This document shows, piece after piece, positions 8,265-56,317 of a stretch of DNA of 64,000 bases (positions within the stretch are counted from its first letter, which is position 1; the number at the start of each line of letters is the position of its first letter). Source of the stretch: Nitrosopumilaceae archaeon AB1(1) (GTDB taxonomy: Archaea; Thermoproteota; Nitrososphaeria; Nitrososphaerales; Nitrosopumilaceae). The DNA lies in NCBI GenBank assembly GCA_033471095.1, contig CP136752.1:1277775-1341774 (forward strand). The letters are read 5' to 3'. Made by a program: the position numbers and the translations under genes. Under the pieces are notes generated by a model that ran no database searches, was not told the DNA's origin, and worked only from the letters and a program-made list of their open reading frames with translations.

Positions 8265-11200
8265 TTAGCCAAGTTCTACATAAACAGTAGCATTACCAAT
8301 TAGTGTGATTGCTGGGGGAGTAGTGTCACGAACAACTATAATTCTATTCACTTGGGTGGCATTATTTCCTGATGAATCAGCAGAGTGGTATGTGATGGTG
8401 TAATTTCCCACGAGAGATGAATTTACAGTGTCACCACCAATTATTACTAGAGAGCCATCATCAGTAGTGGCGTTTTGCTCAGAGTAGGATGAGCCAAGTT
8501 CTACATAAACAGTAGCATTACCATTCAGTGTGATTACTGGGGGAGTAGTATCTAGAACGTTATTATTCACAGGTTGATTCACAAAGTTTTCTAGTGTTAT
8601 GTCTGTACTTTGAGTAGAGTTTATTCCACCACTAGTTTTAGTATATGAGATAGTGATGGTTTCATTTGCCAAGAGATTTCTGCTTAAATTCAGAGTAATT
8701 GAAGAGGAGTCTGATGTTATACTATCTATTGTAGCAGATGTTCCATTAAGAGCAAAGTCTGTAGTAGGAATAACCGAATAGATAATGTTTTCATTAAAAG
8801 TAATTATAATGTTATAACCTTGTGTGTTGGTAATAGCAGAAGTTATCGCTACACTTCTATCTTCAGGTGCAGAGAAAGTTAAGAAAGTAGAAGGAGAGTT
8901 TTGATTTGCATACTCTGTTGCAATCCAGTCTGCAGAGCGAGCAGTAGAGGATAGTCGGAATTCATCGAATTTGCCATCAAAGTAGGAATCAGTTCCCCAA
9001 TTGGATCTTCCGATATAGTTTGATGCTCTATTCTCATCAAGAGATGTATGCACAGCACCACTAGTAATTGAGGCGCCATTTTTGTAGATAGTTGCTGTAC
9101 CTGATGATTCATGTACAACTGTAAAGTATGCCCATTGACCTGTCTGCAAAATATCACTAGCTGTGACACCATCAGAGCTGGTACCCTGTCGCATATCATA
9201 TCTCAAATGCGGGTTAGTGCGATGGGCAGCAATTAGAATATTGTTATCATCCTGACCCTTGCCAAAATCAACGATTCTAGCCCAATTTTTAAGGACATCA
9301 ATATTTGCCCATACCGAGATGGTAAAGTTTGTATTGTAGAATAGACTAGCTGTCAAGTCTGGAAGTTCAAGATAAACACCGTTGGCGTGGTCTACTCCAT
9401 CAAAGTTTATTCCATTACCAATTTGTGCAGATACTAAATCATTAGAGTCAAAGGGAGTAGAGCCTTCAAATAGTGGTGTTGCATGACGATTATTCCCTGA
9501 TGAGTCTAGTGTAGATTGTGCACCAAAAGTGGATTGATCCATGTGATAAATTATTTCATAGTCTGAGTCCCAAACATTATCATGTATAATAGTTGTCGCT
9601 AATGAGACATTATAATACATGTAGAGTATGGTATCACTGGTACTGCTCAAAGTAGGTAGACGAACCCAAGCTACTAGAGTACCGATAGTAGCATTATTAG
9701 TAAATGACTCAATTTCATGCGGTAATATAGTAAATCCATCACTGCTAGTGAAAATAATATCAGCTCCGTTAGGTAGAACAGATGAATTGCTCAAAGCAGA
9801 ATCAGAGATACTTACTAGAAGGGTAAAGTTTTGAAGAATTGTAGTTATTTGGTTACTGTTAATAGTAATTTTCTGTCTAGTATCCCACAAGGAAGGTAAA
9901 TCAAAAAATGGAACATTATTAGTGATTGGTTGATTTATAAAGTTTGCAAGTGATAAATTATTTACGTTTGTAATATTACTAGTTGTTTGACTATATGATA
10001 GTGTTAATGATAATGCAGGTGGAATGTTAGAGTCTAGTGTTAGATTGATGGCAGTGTCATTATGTCTAGTTATACTAGTTGTGGCAATACCTGAAATACT
10101 CACTGCAAAGTCAGTTGGAGAAGTGGTATTGGTAAGAGTGATTTCTCTATCAAAGTTGACAGTAATGTTGTCACCTCGCTGGTTTGTATAGGCGTTAACA
10201 AAGATTGGGGGTGGCAGAACATTATTAGTGATTGGTTGATTTATAAAGTTTGCAAGTGATAAATCATTTACGTTTGTAATATCACTAGTTGTTTGATTAT
10301 ATGATAGTGTTAATGATGATGTGGATGAAATACTAGAGTCTAGTGTTAGATTGATGGCAGTGTCATTATGTCTAGTTATACTAGTTGTAGTAATACCTGA
10401 AATATTTACTGCAAAGTCAGTTGGAGAAGTGGTATTGGTAAGAGTGATTTCTCTATCAAAGTTGACAGTAATGTTGTCACCTCGCTGGTTTGTATAGGCG
10501 TTAACAAAGATTGGGGGTGGCAGAACATTATTAGTGATTGGTTGATTTATAAAGTTTGCAAGTGATAAATCATTTACGTTTGTAATATCACTAGTTGTTT
10601 GATTATATGATAGTGTTAATGATGATGTGGATGAAATACTAGAGTCTAGTGTTAGATTGATGGCAGTGTCATTATGTTTAGTTATACTAGTTGTAGTAAT
10701 ACCTGAAATATTTACTGCAAAGTCAGTTGGAGAAGTGGTATTGGTAAGAGTGATTTCTCTATCAAAGTTGACAGTAATGTTGTCACCTCGCTGGTTTGTA
10801 TAGGCGTTAACAAAGATTGGGGGTGGCAGAACATTATTAGTGATTGGTTGATTTATAAAGTTTGCAAGTGATAAATTATTTACGTTTGTAATATTACTAG
10901 TTGTTTGACTATATGATAGTGTTAATGATAATGCAGGTGGAATGTTAGAGTCTAGTGTTAGATTGATGGCAGTGTCATTATGTTTAGTTATACTAGTTGT
11001 GGCAATACCTGAAATACTCACTGCAAAGTCAGTTGGAGAAGTGGTATTGGTAAGAGTGATTTCTCTATCAAAGTTGACAGTAATGTTGTCACCTCGCTGG
11101 TTTGTATAGGCGTTAACAAAGATTGGGGGTGGCAGAACATTATTAGTGATTGGTTGATTTATAAAGTTTGCAAGTGATAAATCATTTACGTTTGTAATAT

Positions 11201-13613: not shown

Positions 13614-14444
13614 ATGGAATAGACTAGACTGAATCTGCGTAAATACTGTAATTCAGGTAATATCAAAAAAGATGGTATGAGGAACAACAAACAAGGAAAA
13701 ATACAATGATTCAAATGTTTAGATTGTAATAAACGCTTTACATCAAATTTTGAATTTGAGGGTAAACAATCTGATTCAAAAATAATTACAGGTGCATTAC
13801 AAATGTACTATTCAGGTATGTCAGTTGGAGATATTTCAACACATTATGAGTTTGATACTGATGTGAATCATTCTACTATGAATCGCTGGATTGCCAAATA
13901 CCCTGTAATGTTAACTAGATATCTAGATGAAATCATACCACGTGTTGGCAATTGAGTTCGTGCTGATAAAGTATGAATAAAGGTGTCAGGTACGCCAAAA
14001 TATCTATTTGCATCTATGAATAATGACACTCGTTTTGGGTTAGCTAAAGACATGGTCGATACTAAATTTCAGCACAACGCAGATTATTTGTTGAAACTGA
14101 CTAAATTGATTACTGGGAATAAAACACCCAAGTATTTTATCACAGATGGATTACCATCATAGGGTAAATCGTCAAGAAGAGTATTTGGCAGAGAAACACA
14201 ATATGATTAAATATGATGGAGCGTCTAAATGGTGAGATTCGTGATCGTAGGAAAGTGTTTAGAGGATTGAAGAGAAGATAGTCTGATTATTAATGGTGTG
14301 ACAGTGTATTACAATTATGCCAAAAAGTATAGTGGTATTGACAATAAGAGACCATCTAAGAGAGCAAAGATAATTGTCAAGGGTCATAACAAGTGGAATA
14401 CTTTGATACAGAGTGCAAGTTTGCATGATTATGAAACTATGTAA
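13614..14444 (+). pseudogene. Dead IS6-like DDE transposase
   Basis: With interruptions ignored, the frame reads as an archaeal IS6-type transposase: zinc ribbon (CNSGNIKKDG, then CLDCNKRFT), helix-turn-helix (MYYSGMSVGDIS), first catalytic Asp in VRADKV, KYLFASMNNDTRFGLA, second Asp in FITDGLPS, then the ERLNGEIRDRRKVFRGLK block and the C-terminal HNKWNTLIQSAS. It contains stop codons at 13620, after GKIQ, after RVGN, after ADKV and in LPS, plus later frameshifts. At least three stops fall where Trp is expected (WFKC, WVRAD, WIKV), suggesting G-to-A decay of TGG. It cannot make an active transposase. Confidence 0.8.
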
Positions 14445-16267: not shown

Positions 16268-18373
16268 TTAGTGTTTATGAGAAGACAGGGCAGATGCTGC
16301 AGCTACCCAAGAAAGTATGTCATCGTATACAGGTAGATTAAAAGATTCAATCTGTGCAGATATTTTTTGTGTGTATGGACCACCTGTACCACCAATCAAT
16401 ATGGGTTTTTTACGTATTTTACCAAATTCAGACTAATATTTTACTATAATCTCTTCAAGAGGATCATCTTGGAATACAAACCAAGGCATAATAATATCGA
16501 CATTAGGATCGTCCATGAACGCTTTAATTGTAAATCTATAGTCATCTGCGTTAGCCCCACCAGTCACGTCGACTGGGTTTCCTGTACCAATCACATAAGT
16601 TGATGGAAAGTGCTTGATCATTTTTTTACGTGTACTATTTGTAACTTTGGCCAAAGTTAAATTTAATCGCTCAAAATGATCAATTGCTCCAATCATAGGT
16701 CCTGCACCATTACTACACAAGGCAACACGGTTACCTTTGGATTTAGGTTGCCAAGCAAGAGCTTTTGTAACTGCCACAAGTTCATGATACCCATCAACAG
16801 ATATCACACCTGCCTGTTTCAGAGCCCCCATAATAATAGAGTTAGAGCCTCCAAGAGAGCCAGTATGAGATGCAGCTTGTTTTGCCCCAACCAAAGATCG
16901 ACCACTCTTCCAAATCACAATAGGTTTCTTTGTCTGCGAGATGATTTTCTTTGCAGTGTTTATAAATTTACGACCATCGCCGAATCCCTCAACATATAAT
17001 GCGATTACTTTGGTTTGTGGATCACCGGCCAAGTACCATATCAAATCTGCCTCATCCACATCAAATCTATTACCATAGCTTACCATCTTTGATAATCCAA
17101 ACGAATTGGCAGATTCTAAAAAGCTAATCCCCATGGTACCGCTTTGTGACAAAATTGCAACATTACCCAGTTTAGCTCTGACCATTCTCTTTTGACCTTG
17201 AAATGCACAGTCAAGACGATTAGCTGCATTAAACATACCAATGCAATTAGGCCCTATAATACGAATTTTATATTTGGCAGATAGTTGTTTAATTTCTTCT
17301 TCATATTTTGCTCGCTGTCCACCAAGTTCTTTACCACCGCCAGAGACGATAACCACATTATGAATATTTTTTTTAGCACAGTCAAGTAATACCGGTTTTG
17401 TAATAGATAGATCTACAGATATTACTACAAGATCAACCTTGCCTGGAATTGCGGCAATAGAGGGATAACATTTTAGCCCCATGATCTTTTTCTGTTTTGG
17501 GTTAACAGGATACACCTTACCCTTGTAATCATGTTTTGCAAGACTATCCAAGACAGAGTTGCCAATTTTCCCAATGGTATTTGATGCCCCCACCAAAGCA
17601 ACAGATTTTGGAGTAAAAAATGTCTCTATAAATTTAGAGTTTGGAAGAGCTTTGGATATAGAGTTTTTTTGTATATTTTTATGAAGAATAATCTTTGCAT
17701 CTACAACAGCGTATGATTTCGGATACACCATGATTGGGTTAAAATCAATGCTGTTAAAGTGAGAGGCATGATTAATACCTAATTTGCCAATCTTTACCAA
17801 AGCACGTGCAAGCATGTTTAGATCAATTGGTGTACTACCTCGAAATCCACGAAATAGTTGTTTTCCCTTTAATTCAGATATCATGGATTTTGCATCACTT
17901 GTTGTTATTGGTAGCATTCGAAATGACACATCTTTGAAAATTTCAGTCAGTACACCGCCAAGACCCACCATGATCACAGGACCGAACTGTGGATCATTTT
18001 GTAAACCCACAATCATCTCTACTCCTTTAGGTGTCATTCTCTCAAGCAGTATTCCTTTAAACTCAATCTTTTTCTTGGCTGAAAACTTTTTATTCATCTT
18101 TCTAAATTCTTTAATCACAGAATCAAGATTATCAAGACCTACCACTACACCACCAACATCTGTTTTGTGTAAAATTTGTGGTGAGACAACTTTCATCACT
18201 AGTGGGAATCCGATTTGTTTAGCAGCAGTGCGTGCCTGTTTTTCAGTCTTGACTAGTTGGAATTTAGGTACGTTAATTCCATATTGTTTTAATATAGATT
18301 TTGATTGTTCTTCAGTAATTATTTTATGACTAGTCTTGATGGAATCATCAAATATTTGTTTTGCAAGTACCAA
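16268..18373 (-). CDS. ADP-forming acyl-CoA synthetase (3-hydroxypropionate/4-hydroxybutyrate type), interrupted by in-frame TAG
   Basis: Nucleoside-diphosphate-forming acyl-CoA synthetase with the domains fused as ATP-grasp (residues about 20-230; [15 protein letters not shown]) and CoA-binding/succinyl-CoA ligase-like (from about 250; [25 protein letters not shown], and ASHTGSLGG with the His expected to be phosphorylated). In Nitrosopumilus such enzymes activate 3-hydroxypropionate or 4-hydroxybutyrate in CO2 fixation; the substrate cannot be told here. The frame stops at a TAG (16433-16435) after 646 residues, but the next 54 codons in the same frame read [16 protein letters not shown] and end [13 protein letters not shown], a typical C-terminus. 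The full length would be 701 codons. The start is a TTG. Confidence 0.85.
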
Positions 18374-34273: not shown

Positions 34274-35452
34274 TTACATGGAAATTTTCTTTAAATATTT
34301 AATTGATGAATAAAGCACATCTGTGGCAATTTTGATTTCTTCATCGGTATTGAATCTACCACACCCTATACGAATAGATGTATGTGCCTGTTCCTCAGTT
34401 AGACCCAGAGCTAAAAGAACATGAGATGGTTCTACCATCTGAGTTGTACAGGCAGAACCAGCAGATATAGCAATCTTTTTTGAAACAGAATTTATTATAG
34501 CTTTTCCATCGATTCCATCAAATCGTAAATTTAGATTGTGTGTAAGTTTTTTTGTAGGATGACCATTTAGTTTTGCACCCACATCAGAGAGTTTTTCAAA
34601 TATTTGATCAGTCCATTTTTGATATTGAATATTTTCACTATTCATCTTTTTTTGTGCAATATCGATTGCCTTTGCAAATCCTACTATTCCAGGTACATTC
34701 AAAGTGCCAGATCGAATACTTCGTTCTTGCCCTCCACCATGTATCAAGGGTTCAGATTTTACTCTTGGTTTTACACCACGTACATAAAGAGCACCAATTC
34801 CTTTTGGACCATAAATCTTGTGAGATGAAAATGACATTAGATTGATGTTAAGTTTTTGTACATCTATATTTAGATGACCTACAGCTTGAGCAGCATCAGT
34901 ATGAAATAATATGTCATTATCATGTGCAATTTTACCGATTTCCTCTATATCTGCAATGGTTCCAATTTCATTGTTTGCAAACATTATCGAAATTAAGACA
35001 GTCTCATTCGTTATAGAATCAGATAAAGAATCTAGGTCAATACTGCCAAAATTATTCACAGGTAAATAAGTCACTTTGATGTCGTTTGATTCCAAATATT
35101 TGGAAGTATCCAATATTGCTTTGTGTTCAGTACTGCATGTGATTATATGATTTCCACGATCTTGGTTTTTTCTCATCACACCTTTTAGTGCAAGATTATC
35201 TGATTCAGTAGCACCTGATGTAAAAATAATGTCATCCATAGGTGCGTGTATCACATGTGCGATACTCTCTCTAGAGGTTTGAACTACATTAGATGCATCA
35301 TATCCATATGAATGATCTAGACTAGACGCATTTCCAAAAACTTTGGTAAAATAAGGAATCATTGCCTCCAAGACCATAGGATCAGTAGGCGTGGTCGAAT
35401 GAGAATCAAGATAAATTGAATCGTTAGAATTCCCATCAGAATAAGGTGTCAT
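34274..35452 (-). CDS. dndA: Cysteine desulfurase (DndA/IscS family)
   Basis: 392 aa PLP enzyme that mobilises sulfur from cysteine as a persulfide. HTDAAQAVGHLNID and SFSSHKIYGPKGIGA (PLP-binding Lys) are visible, and the catalytic Cys is in SAGSACTTQMVEPSHVLLALG. The N-terminal IYLDSHSTTPTDPMVLEAM is typical of NifS/IscS. It overlaps orf113 by 17 bp in a dense dnd operon, so it is assigned as the sulfur donor for phosphorothioation. The genome may have another housekeeping IscS/SufS outside the window; a dual role cannot be excluded. Confidence 0.87.
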   Translation of the reverse strand: MTPYSDGNSNDSIYLDSHSTTPTDPMVLEAMIPYFTKVFGNASSLDHSYGYDASNVVQTSRESIAHVIHAPMDDIIFTSGATESDNLALKGVMRKNQDRGNHIITCSTEHKAILDTSKYLESNDIKVTYLPVNNFGSIDLDSLSDSITNETVLISIMFANNEIGTIADIEEIGKIAHDNDILFHTDAAQAVGHLNIDVQKLNINLMSFSSHKIYGPKGIGALYVRGVKPRVKSEPLIHGGGQERSIRSGTLNVPGIVGFAKAIDIAQKKMNSENIQYQKWTDQIFEKLSDVGAKLNGHPTKKLTHNLNLRFDGIDGKAIINSVSKKIAISAGSACTTQMVEPSHVLLALGLTEEQAHTSIRIGCGRFNTDEEIKIATDVLYSSIKYLKKISM

Positions 35453-35777
35453 ATAATCTTCCTACAATTTTATCCACATCTAACTTAAATTCATCGATTG
35501 AAAAAAGTTTTAGTTTCTTTTTCTTAACAGAACTATAAAGTTGTAAAACGTGTTTTGGACAATATACAGTAAACATAAAACTGAAATTACTTATCGGCAT
35601 AATTAGAAATATATCCACTTCTTCAATCCCATTATATGCCTTAAAAAATCCAGGAAAATCATTATATTCTAGAATGCCAAAATCAACAAATAAAAGCATG
35701 ACAAATATTACGTTCAAAATTATATGAAGACACATAAAGATATTATCAAAAGGTATTCCATAATATGTGAAAAGCAT
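35436..35777 (-). CDS. Unrecognised 113-aa protein between dndE and dndA
   Basis: The ATG overlaps the dndE stop codon (TAATG), and its 3' end overlaps dndA by 17 bp, so it is translated as part of the operon. The first about 35 residues are hydrophobic (MCLHIILNVIFVMLLFVDFG), followed by an acidic/aromatic stretch (EYNDFPGFFKAYNG) and a basic C-terminus (SVKKKKLKLFSIDEF). The hydrophobic part may be a membrane segment or buried beta strands. No known Dnd subunit matches from memory. Its position suggests a specific role in this lineage's phosphorothioation system. Confidence 0.6.
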   Translation of the reverse strand: MLFTYYGIPFDNIFMCLHIILNVIFVMLLFVDFGILEYNDFPGFFKAYNGIEEVDIFLIMPISNFSFMFTVYCPKHVLQLYSSVKKKKLKLFSIDEFKLDVDKIVGRLYDTLF

Positions 35778-36181
35778 TATTTTGCTCCTTTAGGCATAGA
35801 AGATGATTCAGCTACTTGCATTTCAGTCAGAAAATTGTATATGTCAAACATATTATTGATTCTTTGTTTTACAGATATAGCACCTCGATTGAGATGAGAT
35901 CTTGTCATTTCAGTCAGATATAATTTTGGATTAAGATTATCTTGTCTCAATCTATTGATCATAAGAGCAAGATACATGTTATAATTTGGAAAAAATAGTT
36001 GTGATGGTAAAAATTCTGTACCAGATTTATTATATTCGTCAGGATTCGGAATACCCTTTTGTTTTATCGATAGACATAGTGAAAGTCGTCCCCAAGATTC
36101 AGAGCCAATACCAGTACTGTTCTTTAACATACCAAATAGATGTGTAGTTCGTGAGCTAACTTTAATTTTATCAAACTGCAA
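35777..36181 (-). CDS. dndE: DNA phosphorothioation protein DndE
   Basis: 134 aa. The N-terminal TTHLFGMLKNSTGIGSES and RLSLCLSIKQKG, then LFFPNYNMYLALMINRLRQ, match the small all-helical DndE family, which binds nicked double-stranded DNA in the modification complex. It starts at TTG, overlapping the dndD end by 11 bp. The lysines expected for DNA contact (IKQKG) are retained. It completes the set dndC, dndD, dndE, the core of the modification complex. Confidence 0.85.
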   Translation of the reverse strand: MQFDKIKVSSRTTHLFGMLKNSTGIGSESWGRLSLCLSIKQKGIPNPDEYNKSGTEFLPSQLFFPNYNMYLALMINRLRQDNLNPKLYLTEMTRSHLNRGAISVKQRINNMFDIYNFLTEMQVAESSSMPKGAK

Positions 36182-38195
36182 TTAAATCACCTCCACTTTT
36201 ATCAAAATATGTTCTATCGATAACACTACAAGCATTTACTGCATCATGTTTAATTAAACCAACTTTTGAAATGTAGGGTTTTAATGAGTCGTAATAAGAG
36301 TTCACAATTTCAGTGTCTGTTGAAAATATAATTATTTGATGTGATGCTTGAGGGTAGAAATTATCAACTAAATTTTCCCGATGTTGTTCATCTAGTCGAG
36401 CAAGTGGTGTATCTATAATAAATGGAAATGGGTGTCCAGAAGTTTTGGCTAGACCCCAAATGATTGCTGTTGCATACATTTGTAATTCACCTTTTGACAA
36501 TTTTTCTTTTTGTATTTCAACATCATTTTTTTGATATAATGATATATTGTAAGTTTCAGGATCGATAGATATTCTAGTAACTAACCAATCTTTGTGAAAA
36601 CACTTCTTGATTCCCTTAAAGATGTTCAATTCTAGTGTTTTAATTTTTTTTTCACGTAGTTTTTGTGAATAGTCTTCTAGTACTTTTTGAATACTCGGTA
36701 TCATGTCTAATCCTCGTAGTTTTCTTTGATTCAAATTTCTTTGTGATAAGCATTTGCGAATTTTACTATTTAATAACACCAACATTGATTTTTTTTGTGA
36801 TTCTATTCTTGTTATAGTCTGTAACTCATATTCCATTTCTCCTATTTCTAGAGTTATTTCTTTAATAGCAGAATACAACGGACCAATTTCATCTTGTTGT
36901 GGTATGACTTCTAATTTGGCGGACAGTTCTTTTAATTGTTCAAGATAGTTTTTATGCGATTCGGATTGTGCAAGTATGACCTCATATTTTTGAGATAGCA
37001 TAGACTGTATTTTTTCTTGCAATATTTTCATGTTAACAAGAGAAAAATCAAATACTAATTTTTGTTGATCAGATATTGATTGAAGTTTGTTGTCAACTAT
37101 TTTTTCAAGACGAACAAGTATATCTTTTTTTGTTTTAGGTTTGTATGAATCTAAAAATGGTTTAAGTGATTTTACAATATAGTCAAAGGCATCATTTAAT
37201 GTATCACTTTCAAAATTCTCCTTGATCTTTGTGATATCACACTGAATTTCATCTTTTATTTGTTCCAATTGATCAGATATTATTACAAAAGGTAGATCAG
37301 TCTCAACTAAATGTTTTAATATATTTTCACGATATGATATATGTTGTTCAAATTCTATCTTTTCATCTAATAATTTTTGTCTATTCTTTGCAAAATCTCC
37401 ACCTAACTTGAAGAATTGTACTTCTTGCAATTCTAAATCATTGTGTCGTCTAGTTATTTCTGTGTTTAAAAATATGCGTTTGTCGTGTAGTTCATCAATT
37501 TTTTTTTGAATCAGAACTTTTTCTTTATTGGATTTTTCCAATTCTGATAACACCTCAGACTCAGAACTATCAGAATTCCGTAAAAAATATAGACCAACAT
37601 CATCATACAATTGTTTAGATATATTTAGCCCAAGTATACTATCAAATGAGGATTTAATGTATTGGTTTTCGTTGCTAGACATTGCTAGATCTTGTATTTT
37701 CTCACCGTCAAAGAAGAATAAATCTGCTATGGTCTTTGGAATCATTTGATTTATGAGTTGTTGAAGGTGTGATTTTTCAAGATTCAACGAATGATATCTT
37801 TTACCGTTTAATGGTTTTTTACATATTTTCAAAAATTCATCAACTTTTCCTTTATTATTTTGCCAAGAACGAGTAACCAAGTACTGGGTAATTATACCGT
37901 TTTGAGCATATTGAAATTCCAATGTAATTGACGCATCTGGAGAACTAGTGCTTTTGTTTACATCTCTATGAAAAAGTCTGTGGATTTTTTCATGATATTG
38001 TTTTTTGTTAATCTTGTTTCGTCCAAAGTTTTCGCCATATAGACATAATGGAATTGATTCAAACAAGGTGGTTTTACCTGCACCATTAATTCCACCGTAT
38101 AAAACTATAGGTTTCTCAATAGTTGTAGTAAAATCAATTTGGTTAGAACCACGGTATACTCCTATATTATCAAGTATGATTTTACTTAAAAGCAT
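36171..38195 (-). CDS. dndD: DNA phosphorothioation ATPase DndD
   Basis: 674 aa SMC/Rad50-like ATPase. Walker A GGINGAGKTT is at residues 34-43, a long charged coiled-coil middle runs from about 210 to 510, the ABC signature-like LSKGELQMYATAIIWGL is near 565-580, and Walker B FIIDTPLARLDE begins at about 592. DndD is thought to open or nick DNA to let sulfur be inserted into the backbone. The ATG overlaps dndC by 14 bp. The match to DndD rests on domain layout plus operon position between dndC and dndE. Confidence 0.88.
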   Translation of the reverse strand: MLLSKIILDNIGVYRGSNQIDFTTTIEKPIVLYGGINGAGKTTLFESIPLCLYGENFGRNKINKKQYHEKIHRLFHRDVNKSTSSPDASITLEFQYAQNGIITQYLVTRSWQNNKGKVDEFLKICKKPLNGKRYHSLNLEKSHLQQLINQMIPKTIADLFFFDGEKIQDLAMSSNENQYIKSSFDSILGLNISKQLYDDVGLYFLRNSDSSESEVLSELEKSNKEKVLIQKKIDELHDKRIFLNTEITRRHNDLELQEVQFFKLGGDFAKNRQKLLDEKIEFEQHISYRENILKHLVETDLPFVIISDQLEQIKDEIQCDITKIKENFESDTLNDAFDYIVKSLKPFLDSYKPKTKKDILVRLEKIVDNKLQSISDQQKLVFDFSLVNMKILQEKIQSMLSQKYEVILAQSESHKNYLEQLKELSAKLEVIPQQDEIGPLYSAIKEITLEIGEMEYELQTITRIESQKKSMLVLLNSKIRKCLSQRNLNQRKLRGLDMIPSIQKVLEDYSQKLREKKIKTLELNIFKGIKKCFHKDWLVTRISIDPETYNISLYQKNDVEIQKEKLSKGELQMYATAIIWGLAKTSGHPFPFIIDTPLARLDEQHRENLVDNFYPQASHQIIIFSTDTEIVNSYYDSLKPYISKVGLIKHDAVNACSVIDRTYFDKSGGDLIAV

Positions 38196-39609
38196 TAGGT
38201 TTCACCTGATTATTTTCGTCTAGTTGTGCAAATAGATCTTTTCTTATCTCATCAATATCATCACGCCATTCCTTGGAAAGAATTTTTTTAATTTTCTCAA
38301 AGATCTTTGCATGATTAGAATTATTTTGTAATTCAAACTCTGAATTTAATAACCGACTTACAAGTTTGTACGGTACATTATGACCATCGCAAACAAGTTT
38401 TAGTATCTCTTGTTCTTGCAGTCCAAATCCACCCATATTGTCAATTGGAGACTCTAGTGAAACACCAATTATATCATGATAAATTAGATATGCGGTGTTT
38501 TGCCAGTCACCGTCTTCCATTCTCCAAATTTTTTGTATCTCATGTATTTCATCTTCAGATATTAGTATCATATCAGGTTCATGTTTTTGTATTTTGACCT
38601 GACCCTCTAGAAGTTTTGTAAGATATTCTTTTCTAAATTGTAATGTATAGGGTCCAGGAGTATAATCAGTACCATTAGTCTTTAGTTCAACTAGTCCATT
38701 TCTACGAGTAATCTGACGGATTTTAGGCCAAAGTTTTGGATCTTGGGTCTTTTTTAGTTCATAGCGTAATTCGGCAAGTGGTTCCATCCATTCATGTCCG
38801 TTTTCAATCATACTATCAAGAGATTTTTGTTTATCAACCACAGTACATGTCCAACATCCAAACCTACCACTACCACAAGAAGGTGTACTGGTATCTACCA
38901 CTAATGGACACTCACTTGCATTGGCATCTTGATATAATGCAAGAAGATCTCGATTGTTGTCACCCCAAAGATTTGGTACCTGCAATAGATAGTTCCATAC
39001 GTCATCTGTCTCAAAATCAACAAGTGGTGTATAAACATAAGTTTGAGCAAATTTTTTATGGTGACTCAAAACACTATTTTCTATCTCTAACATATTCATA
39101 GATTGTTGTCTAGTCGAACTCTCACTTTTACGAGTGCCTAGTAAAACAATCACTTCGCCATATTCAGATACTCGTTCTTTTATGAATCTGTCTGCATTTG
39201 CAATTTTTAATAAATCTGTACACCACCTAAACATAGAAGTAGGTGCAGGATATCCCAGACCTAATATTCTAACCCAAAAAGTGTCTGAAATAGGAGGTCT
39301 CAAAAGGTTGGTAGATATCGGAATATGAGATTTTTTAGATGCTTTTTCCATCTTATCTAATGAAAAAGTTATACGCTTAACTATCTGTGGAGATTCAACT
39401 AGTGTATCAGAAGATACAATGTATATTTTTTTATCAAGTTTTTCAACAGGTAGTTTTGATAATGCATTCCACACAAGTTGAACCATACATGTAGAGTCTT
39501 TGCCTCCACTATACCCAAGAATCCATGGACGAGAGTCATTTAGATAAACAGTTTGAATTTCTTTGTAAATACTCTTGACTGTACGTTTGCTAAATACAGA
39601 TTCGGTCAT
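38182..39609 (-). CDS. dndC: DNA phosphorothioation sulfurtransferase DndC
   Basis: 475 aa PAPS-reductase-like enzyme. The ATP pyrophosphatase P loop GYSGGKDST is at residues 32-40. Four cysteines at 234, 245, 252 and 255 (ECPLV, PSCGSGRFGCWTC) fit the [4Fe-4S] cluster that DndC needs. LGTRKSESSTRQ at about 158-169 and a C-terminal SAM-like helical region follow. It adenylates the phosphate and passes sulfur from DndA to DNA. The ATGA overlap with dndB indicates translational coupling. Confidence 0.93.
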   Translation of the reverse strand: MTESVFSKRTVKSIYKEIQTVYLNDSRPWILGYSGGKDSTCMVQLVWNALSKLPVEKLDKKIYIVSSDTLVESPQIVKRITFSLDKMEKASKKSHIPISTNLLRPPISDTFWVRILGLGYPAPTSMFRWCTDLLKIANADRFIKERVSEYGEVIVLLGTRKSESSTRQQSMNMLEIENSVLSHHKKFAQTYVYTPLVDFETDDVWNYLLQVPNLWGDNNRDLLALYQDANASECPLVVDTSTPSCGSGRFGCWTCTVVDKQKSLDSMIENGHEWMEPLAELRYELKKTQDPKLWPKIRQITRRNGLVELKTNGTDYTPGPYTLQFRKEYLTKLLEGQVKIQKHEPDMILISEDEIHEIQKIWRMEDGDWQNTAYLIYHDIIGVSLESPIDNMGGFGLQEQEILKLVCDGHNVPYKLVSRLLNSEFELQNNSNHAKIFEKIKKILSKEWRDDIDEIRKDLFAQLDENNQVKPNAFK

Positions 39610-40685
39610 TTTTGATACCTCTTTAAATCTTCAGGAATCTTGATTTTACAATGTTCCAACATCACACAAGATCCCAACATAATACCGATGGTTGTTCTAA
39701 CCATCTTTCTGCCTAGTATAAGATTACCTTCCCATACAGAGTTGTTTCTAGACCAATCCAAATTAGATAGGGCAAGTAGCTTTTTCTTCCAAGTGGTTGG
39801 ATGTCGTTTGATTGCAACTCTGCCTGTGATTCCTAGCGAGTTTAAGCAATTTGTATGACCATGTACATAATTTTCACGTAGTTCATCAGGCAATATGTTA
39901 CCATTGATCAAAAGTTGCCATTCAGGAAGAGTTTTAGCAATATAGTTCCAAAATTTATGTATGGTATCTTTTTGTGTTTTGTTTAGGACGTGTATGGATT
40001 GTTTACCAAATATTTTTTTGGTTGCATCAGAGATTCCTCCAAGTGTAAATACTTCTTTTGCATGTTTCCCAATAGTTGTTTTTTCCAATTCCACTCGATC
40101 TTGAAATATTTCAAGTGTCTCGGCAAGATCCACAATAAATTGAGAGTACTTGTCACGTTTATCATACAAGATATTAAGTGATTTTGATGGTTTTACAGCA
40201 TTTTTGTTGAGATCAGCAAACATTTGTTGAGATCGTTTCAACCCCTGATCATCAAAAAAGACAACAGATATAGTCTCATTACCCAATTCTGGTTTCTCCA
40301 TTAACGCATGTTCAATAGCTTTACGCCTATGTTGTCCGTCGTTTATCAAAAGCTTTGATGACATATCTATATACAATCTTCCCAATTTTCCATTTGGACC
40401 CAAATGGGGTACAGGGATAAAGTTCATGTTACCATCAACTGAAGCAGCGAGTGATGAAAAAATATATTCATCAGGATTACTTAAAATATAATTTTTCAGA
40501 TCAGGGATTCTAGAGGATCTAAGAATTCGTTGAGCCCTTAATTTTGGAGGGATTCCATGCTCGTTGAATATGAAAAGTTTCGGAATTATCTTCATAGGAC
40601 ATATTACTACATAATACTCACGATTGGCCTGAATTCCACGTATTGCATCAAAACCATATGTTTCAGAGATCGATTCATTCATCAT
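39606..40685 (-). CDS. dndB: DndB-like DGQHR-domain transcriptional regulator
   Basis: 359 aa from ATG at 40685; a TTG 6 bp upstream is less likely. The signature INDGQHRRKAI is at about residues 114-124, and FADLNKNAVKPSKSLNILYD is the second conserved block of the DGQHR family. In bacteria DndB binds the dnd promoter and represses the cluster. It is the first gene of the operon, which fits autoregulation. Archaeal dnd clusters often lack dndB, so its presence here is worth noting. Confidence 0.85.
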   Translation of the reverse strand: MMNESISETYGFDAIRGIQANREYYVVICPMKIIPKLFIFNEHGIPPKLRAQRILRSSRIPDLKNYILSNPDEYIFSSLAASVDGNMNFIPVPHLGPNGKLGRLYIDMSSKLLINDGQHRRKAIEHALMEKPELGNETISVVFFDDQGLKRSQQMFADLNKNAVKPSKSLNILYDKRDKYSQFIVDLAETLEIFQDRVELEKTTIGKHAKEVFTLGGISDATKKIFGKQSIHVLNKTQKDTIHKFWNYIAKTLPEWQLLINGNILPDELRENYVHGHTNCLNSLGITGRVAIKRHPTTWKKKLLALSNLDWSRNNSVWEGNLILGRKMVRTTIGIMLGSCVMLEHCKIKIPEDLKRYQK

Positions 40686-40702
40686 AATCAATTACCTATT
40701 TA

Positions 40703-55225: not shown

Positions 55226-56317
55226 TTGTCATCGAATTCTTTAGGACGTAAATTAATTTTAACTAGTTTTGGAGAGAGTCACGGCAAATGTATTGGAACC
55301 GTATTAAACGGGTGTCCTGCAGGACTTGAGTGAAGTGAAAAAGACATACAACCCATGTTAGATCTTCGCAGACCAGGGCAATCTGCAATAACCACACAAA
55401 GAAAAGAAAAAGATATCGTAGAAATAATATCAGGTGTATTCAGAGGATATACCACAGGCGCTCCAATTACAATGATAATTTGGAACAAGGATAAAAAATC
55501 AAAAGATTATGATAATTTGCAAAATAATCTACGACCAGGTCACGCAGACTATCCTGCTATGATAAAATATAAAAAATTTAATGACTATCGTGGTGGTGGA
55601 AGATTCTCTGGCAGACTCACAGCAACTCATGTAATGGGAGGGGCAGTTGCAAGAAAATTATTACAAGAGATATCCATAAAGGTATATTCTTACACAACAC
55701 AAATTGGCAAGACACAGATAAGATCCACACCATTAATAATCACACCAAAAATGATATTCAGCAATGATACTCGATGTCCCAACAAGGCAGACGCAAAAAA
55801 AATGTATCAAGAAATCATATCTGCACGAAAGAGCGGAGATACGCTGGGTGGAATAATTGAATCAGTTACGACTGATCTGCCAGTTGGAATGGGAGAACCC
55901 ATATTTGGATCTCTTGAATCAGAACTAAGTGCAGCAATTTATTCAATACCATCAGTTAAAGGAGTAGAATTCGGATCAGGTTTTGACGGTTCAGAGAAAA
56001 GGGGGACCGAAAATAATGATTTATACATTAAAAAAGGCAAAAACATCAAAACTAGTACAAATAATTCAGGAGGCATACTTGGAGGACTTTCCATTGGAAT
56101 GCCTCTTAAAATGAGAATAGCTTTCAAACCAGTCTCCTCTGTAGCACAAAAGCAAAAGACCGTCAATATAAAAACTGGTAAATCTGCAACACTACACATC
56201 AAGGGACGACACGATCCATGTGTAGTTCCAAGAGCAGTACCGGTCGTAGATGCTCTCGTATCACTAGTACTTGCAGATCATGCATTAATTGGTGGTTTCA
56301 TTAAACAGGTACTATAA
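55226..56317 (+). CDS. aroC: Chorismate synthase, interrupted by in-frame TGA
   Basis: The frame from TTG 55226 reads [20 protein letters not shown] with the catalytic His of GESHG, then NGCPAGLE, a TGA at 55331-55333, and continues in frame [17 protein letters not shown] to the end of a full-length enzyme (363 codons). Family sequences usually have Leu or another hydrophobic residue at the stop position (GL.LSEKDI). [15 protein letters not shown] and the C-terminal [15 protein letters not shown] are intact. A product from the downstream ATG 55355 would lack the His and the first 43 residues. A TATA-like box is about 28 bp upstream of the TTG. Either a mutation, an error or readthrough. Confidence 0.85.

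Follow-up and report, generated by a model that had tools for sequence, protein, structure and literature searches.

Does the gene for one step of archaeal CO2 fixation end 55 codons early in this genome, or is the TAG that interrupts it present only in the genome record? If the stop were real, an obligate step of carbon fixation in this archaeon would rely on a truncated enzyme, or be absent. The gene lies in a 64-kb stretch of DNA (the window; positions are counted from its first letter), which is part of a single contig of 1.455 Mb.

Identity of the interrupted gene

The relevant features of the locus are the following.

16433..18373, minus strand: open reading frame of 646 codons for a predicted 3-hydroxypropionate--CoA ligase (ADP-forming), assigned from frame, family models and structure match
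16433..16435, minus strand: in-frame TAG, one step from TTG; all 100 relatives aligned have Leu in this column
16271..16432, minus strand: 54 further sense codons of the read-through frame, where the ligase-CoA domain has its final strand and helices
16268..16270, minus strand: TAA closing the read-through frame, near the end point of the relatives

The frame starts with TTG at 18373 and runs for 646 codons, so that the TAG leaves 646 of the 701 residues of the ligase. Both the stop at 16433 near the end of the gene and the 54 in-frame codons behind it had been part of the original prediction, and are confirmed by the frame. The domains follow the expected order, i.e., ATP-grasp, CoA-binding, succinyl-CoA-ligase-like, and most of the ligase-CoA domain (PF13549 at residues 13-230, PF13380 at 256-381, and PF13607 at 403-539); the ligase-CoA domain is incomplete, with the last 55 positions gone if the TAG is real. 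The top family model is NF045492 (E = 0), far over all others, scoring 1158.7 bits with the truncated product and 1244.1 bits with the product of read-through. Both scores are below the curated full-length cut-off of 1300 bits, and the shortfall of the read-through ligase reflects divergence. PDB structure 9y43 matches residues 2-645. These matches name the gene product as the ADP-forming 3-hydroxypropionate--CoA ligase (Nmar_1309 type) that serves in the 3HP/4HB cycle, a pathway covered in PMC11494057, and the earlier identification of a CO2-fixation acyl-CoA synthetase of this cycle is borne out by NF045492 and 9y43.

Two histidines, H69 in the HKTD motif of the ATP-grasp domain and H503 in the ASHTGS motif of the swinging loop, are kept and occupy invariant columns. 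By analogy with H535 and H256, the phosphohistidine sites of Nmar_0206 (PMC11494057), they are predicted to be the two phosphohistidine sites here. The Nmar_1309-type ligase (NF045492; PDB: 9y43) resembles the present one in domain order and catalytic histidines, and Nitrosopumilaceae orthologues are 68-78% identical to it over the body; the difference is in the end of the frame, which comes 55 codons early only in this record. The 4-hydroxybutyrate--CoA ligase (ADP-forming) Nmar_0206 (PDB: 8wzu; PMC11494057) belongs to the same ADP-forming acyl-CoA synthetase superfamily, but has a permuted domain order, about 36% identity to the ligase studied here, and another substrate.

The stop in relatives, and the rest of the genome

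Orthologues were sought in 250 Nitrosopumilaceae genomes, all but its own from species outside the genus of this archaeon; 215 gave a match, and about 150 matches were listed one by one. None of these, except for the present genome, has an internal stop, and the TAG column is occupied by Leu in every one of the 100 aligned relatives, with codons CTT, CTA, CTG, TTG, TTA and CTC. Since the other listed matches are stop-free and the column is otherwise all-Leu, the stop is specific to this genome record. Truncation as a trait of the clade was considered and rejected, every other relative among the matches listed being stop-free.

The search of the genome for an intact paralogue, suggested with the original prediction, gave none: the only other match is the intact 4-hydroxybutyrate--CoA ligase (G000:C1:702891-704963), 36% identical. 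There is likewise no match in the genome to PF00501 (AMP-binding), as would be expected of an AMP-forming replacement. AmoA, the 4HB-CoA ligase and 4HB-CoA dehydratase are all intact.

Divergence and predicted structure of the tail

The 54-codon tail carries the motifs [10 protein letters not shown] and WVAAASAL. The C-terminal motifs anticipated by the original prediction are thus present, but the tail is not fully typical: three of its 13 invariant residues are changed (N663T, R687L and G700K), as are the near-invariant Q698 and W699. The loss of invariant columns is 3/13 in the tail as against 6/236 in the body (Fisher p = 0.008; p = 0.05 when the last four residues are left out). The rarity-weighted divergence of the tail is the highest among all sequences compared, with much of the signal in the last four residues. 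Because several of the changes are multi-step (N663T, W699H and G700K each need two or more base steps), they are evolutionary, and isolated base errors fail to explain them. Scaling the branch lengths of the body tree onto the tail, on the other hand, reveals no extra tail length on this branch; the lineage has diverged throughout, in the body as well as in the tail. The case for relaxed selection on the tail is therefore mixed, conserved-column counts being for it and the branch-scaling test against, and we take the divergence of the tail as weak evidence of a real truncation.

AlphaFold2 confidence over residues 540-646 is mostly about 85-90 when the tail is included and about 70-85 when it is not, and a core strand is missing from the model of the truncated ligase. 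The lower confidence across the ligase-CoA domain suggests that this domain would be destabilised in the truncated form.

Lone in-frame stops across the assembly

We surveyed 476 kb of the assembly (the 64-kb window plus 21 further stretches, 20 of them 20 kb long and the other 12 kb) for stops interrupting conserved genes, with the open frames of two complete relatives, G016 and G003, as the reference and with overlap filtering against antisense ORFs. The survey covered 171 conserved genes and 50,473 aligned residues. Thirteen genes were flagged, and about 10-11 of the 171 (about 6%) were judged, sorting by eye, to be interrupted by a lone in-frame stop that has conserved coding sequence before and after it. 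Stops in genes that the read-through scan identified are listed below, among them that of the genome's sole chorismate synthase gene (AroC), which lies in the window.

L197:15590 (G000:C1 about 807,590): TAA at Ser in Rpo1
L195:15097 (G000:C1 about 663,097): TGA at Arg in MetK
L202:2883: TGA at Arg in CarB (carbamoyl-phosphate synthase large subunit)
L195:2793: TAA at Gln in ribosomal protein S6e
L190:13223: TAA at Gln in CoxB
window 55331..55333, plus strand: TGA in AroC (gene at 55226-56314), Leu in the aligned relative

The same scan gave the TGA at Leu in AroC and the TAG at Leu in the ligase, as well as a TAA in a dihydropyrimidinase/dihydroorotase-like amidohydrolase and a TGA in a dehydrogenase-like protein; a further protein with TGA is 86% identical to its relative and has no model match. 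TAA, TAG and TGA are all represented, at Gln, Ser, Arg, Leu and other residues. Rpo1, MetK and AroC are single-copy in this genome, and stop-free in every relative where they were found. In the control survey of G003 (385 genes) and G016 (388 genes) no comparable lone stop was seen, judged by eye; the matches there were, again by eye, IS-like, antisense or unaligned upstream sequence. Single-base Ns number 21 in the 476 kb of this assembly and zero in 2.0 Mb of the relatives, and frameshifts, found in one of the 171 genes, are not elevated.

The implied rate is about 1.4e-3 substitutions per base (about 1.4 per kb). At this rate, about 0.14 stops are predicted in the 701-codon ligase gene, i.e., a chance of about 13% of having one, and about 3 stops in the conserved codons of a window such as this one, estimated at about 15,000; two were found, in the ligase and in AroC.

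Two other interrupted frames were noticed. At window position 8265 (minus strand) an in-frame TAA lies in a large repetitive surface protein, with 1351 codons before it and about 670 open after it; sister copies of the repeat seem to have Ser at this position, and this is possibly another error. At L187:16540-17767 (minus strand) there is a frameshift and a TAA in a gene 77% identical to a 423-residue protein of a relative.

Explanations of the stop

To our knowledge, no cell is viable with its sole RNA polymerase large subunit and its sole MetK cut short. On this ground, most of the lone stops must have arisen in the record; and since they interrupt about 6% of the conserved genes, including Rpo1, MetK and AroC, each single-copy and indispensable, the TAG of the ligase too is most likely to belong to the record rather than to the organism. 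We put the probability that it is a base-substitution error of the assembly, and not biology, at about 0.8. A Leu codon, probably TTG, would have been recorded as TAG, and the living organism would have an ordinary full-length 3-hydroxypropionyl-CoA synthetase of 701 residues in its 3HP/4HB cycle. We infer one common cause of the lone stops in the assembly, namely sequencing or consensus error. The mixture of stop types, the many residues affected, the few frameshifts and the single Ns fit consensus errors of the substitution type. Nonsense codons produced by consensus error in draft assemblies are likewise scattered over essential genes, in the company of single Ns and with clean relatives; unpolished long-read assemblies, in contrast, typically have indel errors, whereas those here are substitutions.

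A real stop might leave a partly active enzyme of 646 residues, with a ligase-CoA domain cut off before its final strand and helices and the tail now drifting. The excess loss of conserved residues in the tail agrees with this, as do the retention of H69 and H503 in a body still under constraint and the lack of any other such ligase in the genome; yet the branch-length test finds no excess in the tail, the model without it loses a core strand and confidence over 540-646, no other relative among the matches listed is truncated, and essential genes of this very assembly commonly have lone stops; together, these points make a truncated enzyme unlikely. Still more improbable is loss of the 3HP/4HB cycle at the ligase step. 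The sole copy is interrupted and no PF00501 protein could replace it, but AmoA is intact, as are the 4HB-CoA ligase and the 4HB-CoA dehydratase, few conserved residues have been lost from the ligase body, and interruptions extend beyond the genes of the pathway. The null allele of a CO2-fixation gene proposed in the original prediction is thus unsupported, given that about 6% of the conserved genes have a lone stop, Rpo1, MetK and AroC among them.

Organism-wide readthrough or recoding would account for many essential genes having one in-frame stop with conserved sequence downstream. Recoding, however, would match one stop to one residue, and the occurrence of three stop codons at several residues argues against it; no suppressor tRNA was detected, and nothing similar is seen in relatives, so we give this explanation hardly any weight. 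We find it just as hard to believe that all of the stops are real and that the archaeon tolerates or reads through three kinds of them in dozens of genes, RNA polymerase included. As for tRNAs, a CUA anticodon (CTA in DNA) was found in none of the 40 tRNA-like loci, one of which, L182, was not called by ARAGORN; an amber suppressor or pyrrolysine-type tRNA was rejected on this ground.

Base-substitution error in the record, the preferred explanation, has consequences beyond the ligase. The lone stops, including those in indispensable genes, indicate a genome-wide quality problem of this assembly: substitution errors appear to affect the single-contig genome at a rate of roughly one per kilobase or higher. 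Calls of pseudogenes or of lost function made from it are untrustworthy without reads.

Other features of the window

A DNA phosphorothioation cluster (DndA, DndE, DndD, DndC and DndB, by PADLOC models) is located at 34274-40691 on the minus strand, where the Dnd genes are followed by an MzaB-like protein and a PbeA/restriction-type helicase. Near the ligase, at 13803-14430 (plus strand), a gene-poor stretch contains fragmented transposase- or integrase-like frames, which, from their translations alone, are probably the remnant of a mobile element.
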